48,895 nt of DNA from assembly GCA_016926255.1 (NCBI GenBank), contig JAFGOY010000020.1:1-48895 (forward strand), in the 5' to 3' direction. A model generated the notes under the pieces. That model was not told the DNA's origin, did not search any database, and was given only the letters and a program-made list of their open reading frames with translations. Source of the DNA: Anaerolineae bacterium (GTDB lineage: Bacteria; Chloroflexota; Anaerolineae; Aggregatilineales; UBA3940). The position numbers and the translations under genes were made by a program. This document shows, one piece after another, positions 41,287 to 43,366 of the stretch (its first letter is position 1; each line of letters opens with the position of its first letter).

Positions 41287-41661
41287 GTGCAACGCACACT
41301 GCTTGTCTTACTGGTTGGCCTGGGACTGGGCGCTCTGGGGGGGGCCGTATTCGGCTGGCTGGTTCCCATCCAGGATGTCAGCACCGGGTTCTATGAACTG
41401 CACCCTAACTATAAGGCCGACTATACGGTGATGGTGGGGGCGGCCTATGCCGCCGACGGCGATTGGGACAAAGCCCAGGCCCGCCTGGGCCGCCTGGCCG
41501 AACCCGACCCGGCCACTTATGTCGTCACACTGGCCGAACAGTACATCGCCGAAGGGCGAAATCCAAACGACATTCGCAACCTGGTCGCAATGGCAGTGCG
41601 TTTTGGGTATACCACCCCTCCAATGCAGTTGTATATTTCACCACCTGATTCAGAGCAGTAG
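41287..41661 (+). CDS. Membrane-anchored protein, first of a paralogous pair
   Basis: The product is 124 aa from GTG 41287, with GAGG 8 bases upstream. An N-terminal TM helix with small residues (LLVGLGLGALGG) is followed by an outside helical region: YTVMVGAAYAADGDWDKAQARL, then GRNPNDIRNL. Residues 3-120 align along their length with the N-terminal part of the next gene, so the two are tandem duplicates. The helical part resembles a short TPR-like repeat. A run of eight G (41337-41344) lies in the TM codons. Function unknown. Confidence 0.75.
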   Translation: MQRTLLVLLVGLGLGALGGAVFGWLVPIQDVSTGFYELHPNYKADYTVMVGAAYAADGDWDKAQARLGRLAEPDPATYVVTLAEQYIAEGRNPNDIRNLVAMAVRFGYTTPPMQLYISPPDSEQ

Positions 41662-41664
41662 CCC

Positions 41665-42555
41665 ATGCAAGAAGACTCACCTCGTTTCCCCTGGATAGCG
41701 CTTCTCATCGGCCTTGTGATCGGTATTGCCGGCGGCCTCTATTATGGTTGGTATCTCAACCCGGTCGACTGGGTCAATATTGGCCCGGACAAGCTCAACG
41801 CAGAAGATCAACAGGAATATATCCTGCTGGTTGCCGAAGCGTATCTACAGGAACAGGAGATCGCACGGGCCAGCGCCCGCCTTGCTGCATTGGATACCCA
41901 TGACATCGCCGAGCTGGTCAGCCTCCAGGCCGACGAAGCTCTGCTCAGGGGCGACGACCCTAACGAAGTCCGCGCCCTGACGACACTGGCCGAAGCATTG
42001 GGGGCCAGCCCGATGGCCGCCGAGGTTTTTTCAGGCACGACGGCACCGGCAACCCTGGATGAAGAAAGGACCGTTACCCCAACCTTCGAAGGAATCGCCA
42101 GCCCAACACCGCCAACTATCGGTGACACGACGGATACCCCAACGCCCACCCAGGAAACGCTGACTCCCACCCCGCAGATCATCAGCGAAACCGATCTGAG
42201 CCTTGTCGAGCGCGAGACGGTGTGCGAAGCCGGGGAAGGTTCAGGCCAGATCGAGATACTGGTCTTGAATCGGGATGAGATCGGCATCCCGGCAGTTGAG
42301 GTTCGTGTTGAATGGGGGGGAGAAGACGCAGACACGTTCTTTACCGGGTTAAATCCGGGCGTCGATCCGGGTTACGCCGATTTCAGCATGGTCGTCGACC
42401 GGGTTTATTCGGTCACCCTCGTCGGTCTGACAGAACCGGTCGTCGGCCTCGACAGCAGCAATTGCACCACCGATTCCGGCGAAGAATCCATCCCCACCTA
42501 CCGGCTGACGTTTTCCCCCAACAATAACAATGACGATGCCACCGTCGACGAATAA
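41665..42555 (+). CDS. Membrane-anchored paralogue with Thr/Pro linker and beta domain
   Basis: The product is 296 aa. Residues 8-110 repeat the plan of the preceding protein (LLIGLVIGIAGG...YYGWY, EYILLVAEAYLQ, ARASARLAAL, DDPNEVRAL). Residues about 125-172 are a TPTP-rich linker of the kind found in Chloroflexota surface proteins. Residues about 175-285 form a predicted beta domain with two Cys, VEVRVEWGGEDADTFFTGLNP and GYADFSMVVDRVYSVTLVG. It is probably exported with an N-terminal anchor. It starts 3 bases after the first gene stops. A run of seven G lies at 42314-42320. Ligand and function unknown. Confidence 0.8.
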   Translation: MQEDSPRFPWIALLIGLVIGIAGGLYYGWYLNPVDWVNIGPDKLNAEDQQEYILLVAEAYLQEQEIARASARLAALDTHDIAELVSLQADEALLRGDDPNEVRALTTLAEALGASPMAAEVFSGTTAPATLDEERTVTPTFEGIASPTPPTIGDTTDTPTPTQETLTPTPQIISETDLSLVERETVCEAGEGSGQIEILVLNRDEIGIPAVEVRVEWGGEDADTFFTGLNPGVDPGYADFSMVVDRVYSVTLVGLTEPVVGLDSSNCTTDSGEESIPTYRLTFSPNNNNDDATVDE

Positions 42556-42630: not shown

Positions 42631-43284
42631 CTACTGGCTCGCCATCGCCTGCACTAGCTCACGGAAAGCAGTTTTGTAGTCCTCGGAGAAATCGAACCGG
42701 GGAATTCGCCGCAGATCGTCGGGAACCTCGCAGGCTTCGACCTGAGCAATGAAGACCGGTTTGCGCTCGCTACGGAAGAATTGCCAGCCTTTCTCGACTT
42801 CCGATTCGTCAAGCGCCGCCCCTGAAAGTACGACAACCATCTGGCTGCATTCTTCCAGTGCCGGGTGGACGCCGCTTGCCCAACTCACTTCGCCGGTCGG
42901 ATCGTTTGCCTCATACCAGGTAGCGATCCCCGTTTTCTGCAAATCTTCGGCAAGCTGTCCGGCAATCTGAGAATCGTCCGGACTGCTGTTGATATACGCC
43001 GCATAGCTGTTCTGCGCACGACCTTTTCCCTTGCGGGACTGCCCTGCGATCTCTTTGAACTGGCTGGTATCGGGCTGAACCATCCCCCGGTGTGCATCCG
43101 TGCGTCCCATCCGAAAGATGGTCGACCCGCAGATTTCACACTCGCCGCGAGTGCCGGGCGCGCCGCGTTTGGTCCAGACCGGGTTTGGATCAACCATCAC
43201 AACGGTCTGTTTACAGCGCACACAATAGGCTTCAATTTCTTCTGGTTCGTCGTATTCGTCGTGATGATGACCTTCGTCGTGCAT
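42631..43284 (-). CDS. DUF5679 zinc ribbon fused to a TIR domain
   Basis: The start at 43284 has AAAGG 5 bases upstream; the in-frame GTG at 43299 would absorb it. The product is 217 aa. The N-terminus is His-rich (HHH at 6-8). Residues 18-60 match DUF5679 with zinc ligands C21, C24, C49 and C52. A 30-residue linker follows, then a TIR domain (about 94-205): YAAYINSS, LAEDLQKTGIATWYEAND, MVVVLSGAALDESE, KPVFIAQVEAC, RRIPRFDF. At the position where bacterial TIR NADases have the catalytic Glu before Trp, this protein has Gly166 (EKGWQFF). It may be a protein-interaction TIR or an inactive NADase. It stands alone. Confidence 0.78.
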   Translation of the reverse strand: MHDEGHHHDEYDEPEEIEAYCVRCKQTVVMVDPNPVWTKRGAPGTRGECEICGSTIFRMGRTDAHRGMVQPDTSQFKEIAGQSRKGKGRAQNSYAAYINSSPDDSQIAGQLAEDLQKTGIATWYEANDPTGEVSWASGVHPALEECSQMVVVLSGAALDESEVEKGWQFFRSERKPVFIAQVEACEVPDDLRRIPRFDFSEDYKTAFRELVQAMASQ

Positions 43285-43366
43285 AGTGACCTTTCCCACT
43301 GAACAGTTATATCCTCACTGCTCAGTGTAGCCGAACCTAAACTCAGGAGCAAACTGGCCGGGATTA

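Follow-up and report, generated by a model that had tools for sequence, protein, structure and literature searches.

A conserved ribbon-TIR fusion protein of the Aggregatilineales that lacks the residues of TIR NADases and probably has a non-catalytic binding role

The window analyzed here, a stretch of 48,895 nucleotides from contig JAFGOY010000020.1 of an Anaerolineae bacterium (order Aggregatilineales of the Chloroflexota, assembly GCA_016926255.1), carries a gene for a protein in which a four-cysteine DUF5679 zinc ribbon is joined to a TIR domain. Re-reading of the sequence confirmed the open reading frame, strand, coordinates and cysteine numbering given by the first-pass annotation, which had been made from the letters alone. 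The start codon is the ATG at 43284, with GGAAAGG five bases upstream; an alternative GTG start lies at 43299 within the same listed open reading frame. From N- to C-terminus the protein consists of an acidic tail, the ribbon, a basic linker and a TIR_2 domain; the Pfam match to DUF5679 (PF18930) spans residues 20-59 at 46.3 bits (cut-off 27), and that to TIR_2 (PF13676) spans residues 101-211 at 52.4 bits (gathering cut-off 28). The features are as follows.

42631..43284, minus strand: DUF5679-TIR coding sequence, 217 amino acids plus stop (open reading frame list, Pfam, ortholog alignment)
43228..43284, minus strand: acidic N-terminal tail, residues 1-19 (net charge over 54 orthologs)
43090..43227, minus strand: DUF5679 four-Cys zinc ribbon with conserved tail to His65, residues 20-65 (Pfam, alignment)
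43006..43089, minus strand: variable, mostly basic linker, residues 66-93 (mean net charge +2.9)
42634..43002, minus strand: TIR_2 domain, residues 95-217 (Pfam, profile alignment, fold match)
42856..42882, minus strand: family-specific motif W135-A-x-G-V-H140-P141-A-L143 (conservation in the ortholog alignment)
42787..42789, minus strand: codon GGC for Gly166, at the TIR catalytic-Glu position (alignment and control TIRs)

Neighboring genes in the window encode an alpha/beta hydrolase, an MFS transporter and an ECF sigma factor, with housekeeping and polysaccharide genes further off. Only two methyltransferase-type proteins among ten neighbors were matched by PADLOC; PADLOC and neighbor annotation together gave no clear defense context at the locus, and known defense families matched the fusion protein only partially and weakly, through TIR-bearing models. 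Two small proteins encoded side by side on the plus strand (41287-41658 and 41665-42552) resemble each other in their hydrophobic N-termini; the first shows weak TPR-like matches, and in two genomes of this family a relative of the 41665-42552 protein is encoded next to the fusion.

The fusion is present in 57 of 101 genomes (its own genome with its family and order, full-length and truncated matches counted together), always as a single copy and in one case as two pieces on separate contigs. Among 400 genomes sampled from the phylum and 396 from the class, full-length fusion matches fell within the Aggregatilineales only; outside the order, profile matches were to the ribbon alone, in reading frames as long as topoisomerase I or in small stand-alone proteins, or to separate TIR domains. 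The survey of Chloroflexota fusions and their neighbors that the first-pass annotation had proposed thus places the fusion in one order without fixed neighbors: across 16 loci, namely the window and the 15 of 20 retrieved regions in which the gene was recovered, no fixed neighbor or operon partner was found beyond the closest kin, at family level. A contig scan with one protein as query found one relative, plasmid and phage records held no match to the fusion protein, and scans of viral contigs for TIR relatives gave nothing usable for deepening the alignment.

Descent within the order is vertical, since in a gene tree of 55 orthologs each of six families forms one clade (5 changes, the minimum possible being 5); the same tree rules out acquisition by horizontal transfer or on mobile elements inside the order. 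Values of dN/dS lie between 0.03 and 0.29 in the pairs tested and below 0.08 in most close pairs, indicating strong purifying selection. Some genera of the order lack the fusion, which is what could be said for a gene in the course of being lost; such decay is nevertheless extremely improbable, being contradicted by dN/dS well below 1, by reading frames that are intact and full-length in the orthologs listed, and by the invariance of the cysteine and TIR motif positions.

Conservation is strict in the ribbon, where Cys21, Cys24, Cys49, Cys52 and His65 are found in all 57 orthologs with data. The N-terminal tail was described in the first-pass annotation as His-rich, a trait that turns out to be peculiar to this copy (the mean over 54 orthologs is 0.9 His); the conserved property is acidity, with a mean net charge of -8.7 and an acidic tail in nearly all orthologs. 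Topoisomerase I in these bacteria, including that of the same genome (L050, G000:C78:54734-54853), has a DUF5679 ribbon at its N-terminus with the same four cysteines and the same signatures (G-x-P-x-T-[KR]-G, RMG and a His), carried there on a topoisomerase and in the fusion on a TIR domain. This analogy is loose, because the ribbon is N-terminal in this genome and the well-studied topoisomerase I ribbons are C-terminal (PMC9369019). In two families of the order (f3 and f8) the TIR fusion is the sole DUF5679 match found, so that the topoisomerase ribbon is either absent or unrecognised there. Stand-alone DUF5679 ribbons also occur: two (L182, G059:C76:89857-89976; L183, G047:C56:43694-43813) lie in open frames of 94 and 89 amino acids with a C-terminal tail rich in Lys and Ala, and further ones of 50-75 amino acids are spread through this order and the phylum at large. 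Judging by its Cys pattern and by the ribbons of topoisomerase I, we infer that DUF5679 would bind zinc or nucleic acid.

The most distinctive feature of the TIR domain is what it lacks. All 42 control TIR_2 domains with data, drawn from the same genome and relatives and biased toward high-scoring TIRs, carry the Glu on which NADase function depends in every prokaryotic TIR examined (PMC7282519). That Glu is found in 1 of 56 orthologs of the fusion, where the column of residue 166 reads Ala in 44, Gly in 4, Ser in 3, Asn in 2 and Asp, Glu and Thr in one each. The first-pass annotation had noted that Gly166 (codon GGC) stands where other TIRs have their catalytic Glu; this holds, and the loss proves to be family-wide. 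In a profile-profile alignment to the TIRs of the same genome (99.3% probability), Gly166 lies opposite the invariant Glu and Glu162 opposite the Trp of WxxxE; by phmmer, the helix-C Glu of the controls aligns with the catalytic Glu of AbTIR (E208).

The loss extends to other residues. Ser140 and Asp167 of AbTIR, numbered as in PMC11374754, are both required for its NADase activity (PMC11374754), and align with the Ser of an FxS motif and the Asp of a WxD motif that are retained in 41 and 39 of the 42 controls, respectively. In the fusion, position 99, equivalent to S140, is Asn in 38 orthologs (this copy among them) and Ala in 13, with Ser in only 1 of 58; position 125, equivalent to D167, is Asp in 15 of 57 and Glu in this copy. 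Position 162, equivalent to W204 of AbTIR, is Trp in none of 56 orthologs, a loss that weighs less because this Trp is missing from most control TIRs as well. Taking the four NADase residues together (the Glu, S140, D167 and W204), 41 of 56 orthologs have none, 14 keep one and 1 keeps two. The sole ortholog with Glu at the catalytic position (L114, G059:C25) also has Asp at the D167 position; it is a natural candidate for activity that was kept or recovered.

Could the protein still process NAD by means of a different catalytic acid? Asp114 and Asp104 are strongly conserved among the orthologs, and some Glu occurs within residues 162-166 in 30 of 56. None of the Glu residues in the helix is conserved, however; D104 is a general TIR position, common to Glu-bearing TIRs; and the prokaryotic TIRs studied to date depend on the Glu of this helix (PMC7282519). 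We regard such an enzyme as very unlikely. The particular candidates E162 and E164, either of which in the catalytic pocket would have undone the reading given in the first-pass annotation, are ruled out as substitutes, since in the alignment Glu is found at these positions in only 4 and 15 of the 56 orthologs and no other Glu is conserved nearby.

AlphaFold was given two sequences only, for the full protein and for the TIR part alike. The model of the full protein contains a four-strand ribbon of moderate quality and no formed TIR (mean pLDDT 41), and the TIR part alone yields a TIR-like model of low confidence (mean pLDDT 58.7, pTM 0.51), in which residue 166 lies inside the helix corresponding to helix C. 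The best matches of this model among solved structures are the SPARTA TIR (Z 9.8) and SARM1 (Z 9.4), with some unrelated folds close behind (Z 9.0-9.5); Foldseek agrees on the TIR fold with modest E-values. The low-confidence model supports the TIR fold, which is already clear from the sequence, and does not extend to side-chain positions.

While the NADase residues have gone, other positions have become fixed. All 56 orthologs share W135, P141, K175, P188, R192 and R196, and 55 of them have H140. Trp135, hydrophobic residue 139 and the pair A142-L143 are usual for TIR domains, whereas H140 and P141 occupy two positions that vary among the control TIRs, and R196 lies opposite an aromatic residue in the aligned TIR. 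The difference is clear in comparison with the Glu-bearing TIR_2 domains of the same genomes (the xEDEWxYx type; L153, L156, L158), which belong to the same Pfam family, share the fold and have a similar helix C (VEDEWQYYL in the relatives, VEKGWQFFR here): in the fusion the catalytic Glu and the counterpart of S140 are missing, as is mostly that of D167, and H140, P141, R192 and R196 are fixed and a ribbon stands at the N-terminus.

These fixed residues might form a remodelled pocket, in which H140, K175, R192 and R196 bind NAD, ADP-ribose or some other nucleotide, leave it intact and signal its binding to the ribbon. The invariant His, Lys and Arg residues, with H140 and R196 standing where canonical TIRs carry other residues, would suit such a ligand sensor, but most orthologs have lost the counterparts of AbTIR S140 and D167, two further residues on which NADase activity depends, and we consider such a sensor quite unlikely. 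For the same reason, the suggestion made in the first-pass annotation of a sensor that binds NAD and does not cleave it is weakened.

As read from the sequences, then, this is a protein whose ribbon is conserved, whose NADase residues are jointly absent, whose TIR domain has acquired fixed positions of its own and whose gene descends vertically under selection. The loss of the catalytic residues, together with the intact inheritance of the dead version across the order, suggests a binding or regulatory part rather than an enzyme, and we consider it probable that the protein is a conserved, vertically inherited pseudo-TIR with a non-catalytic binding role. Of the first-pass proposal of a signaling or scaffolding role without catalysis, the loss of catalysis is well supported by the sequence; a scaffolding or signaling role fits and would follow from it by inference. 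The TIR domain would no longer cleave NAD and would serve as a binding module that contacts either other TIR domains or, via the newly fixed positions, a different partner. More tentatively, the topoisomerase I-type ribbon and the basic linker may anchor the protein to nucleic acid or RNA polymerase, a tether that we think possible but doubtful, and the protein so anchored would then regulate or assemble complexes there. Counting against the pseudo-TIR reading are the Glu and Asp of L114, the low pLDDT of the TIR model (58.7) and the lack of a conserved operon partner pointing to a pathway.

A more specific form of the binding role is that of a heterotypic regulator, which would join or cap active TIR assemblies of the same cell and restrain or tune their NADase activity, in the manner of sensor TIRs that lack the Glu, such as plant RRS1, and are paired with active partners. 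About a dozen other TIR_2 matches are present in the genome, nearly all with the catalytic Glu, and TIRs work by self-association (PMC7282519); the plant TIRs without the catalytic Glu, a minority, appear to belong mostly to the sensor type, which relies on an active partner (PMC7282519). Open reading frames and Pfam reveal no active TIR gene next to the fusion gene in the window, however, and the number of TIRs per genome does not clearly differ with and without the fusion gene (median 11 vs 7, P 0.18). We judge this form of the binding role unlikely. One genome of the order (G040, 7.6 Mb) has 66 TIR_2 matches, far above its relatives.

Precedents for a pseudo-TIR with a binding role exist in eukaryotes. 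MyD88 and the TIR domains of TLRs have a TIR fold without the catalytic Glu that is used for binding. The same is true of the plant protein RRS1 (PMC7282519), much as we propose here. The fusion differs from all of these in its domain partners and in having its own fixed motif, with no sign of a shared loss. Literature searches, from whose scope most subscription papers fell outside, returned no paper on DUF5679 by name and nothing on point for bacterial pseudoenzyme TIRs.

Bacterial TIR domains have mostly been studied as NAD-consuming enzymes of defense or virulence. If our reading is correct, the fusion would give bacteria an equivalent of the non-enzymatic animal and plant TIRs, one that is single-copy, vertically inherited and strongly selected, and would offer a simple system for asking what a TIR does when it is not cutting NAD. 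A bolder version, which we hold to be rather improbable, is that a dead TIR was domesticated in this order and became a permanent regulator on the chromosome, one that restrains the active TIR NADases of its own cell or, via the topoisomerase-type ribbon, couples TIR-type assembly to the machinery of transcription or DNA topology.
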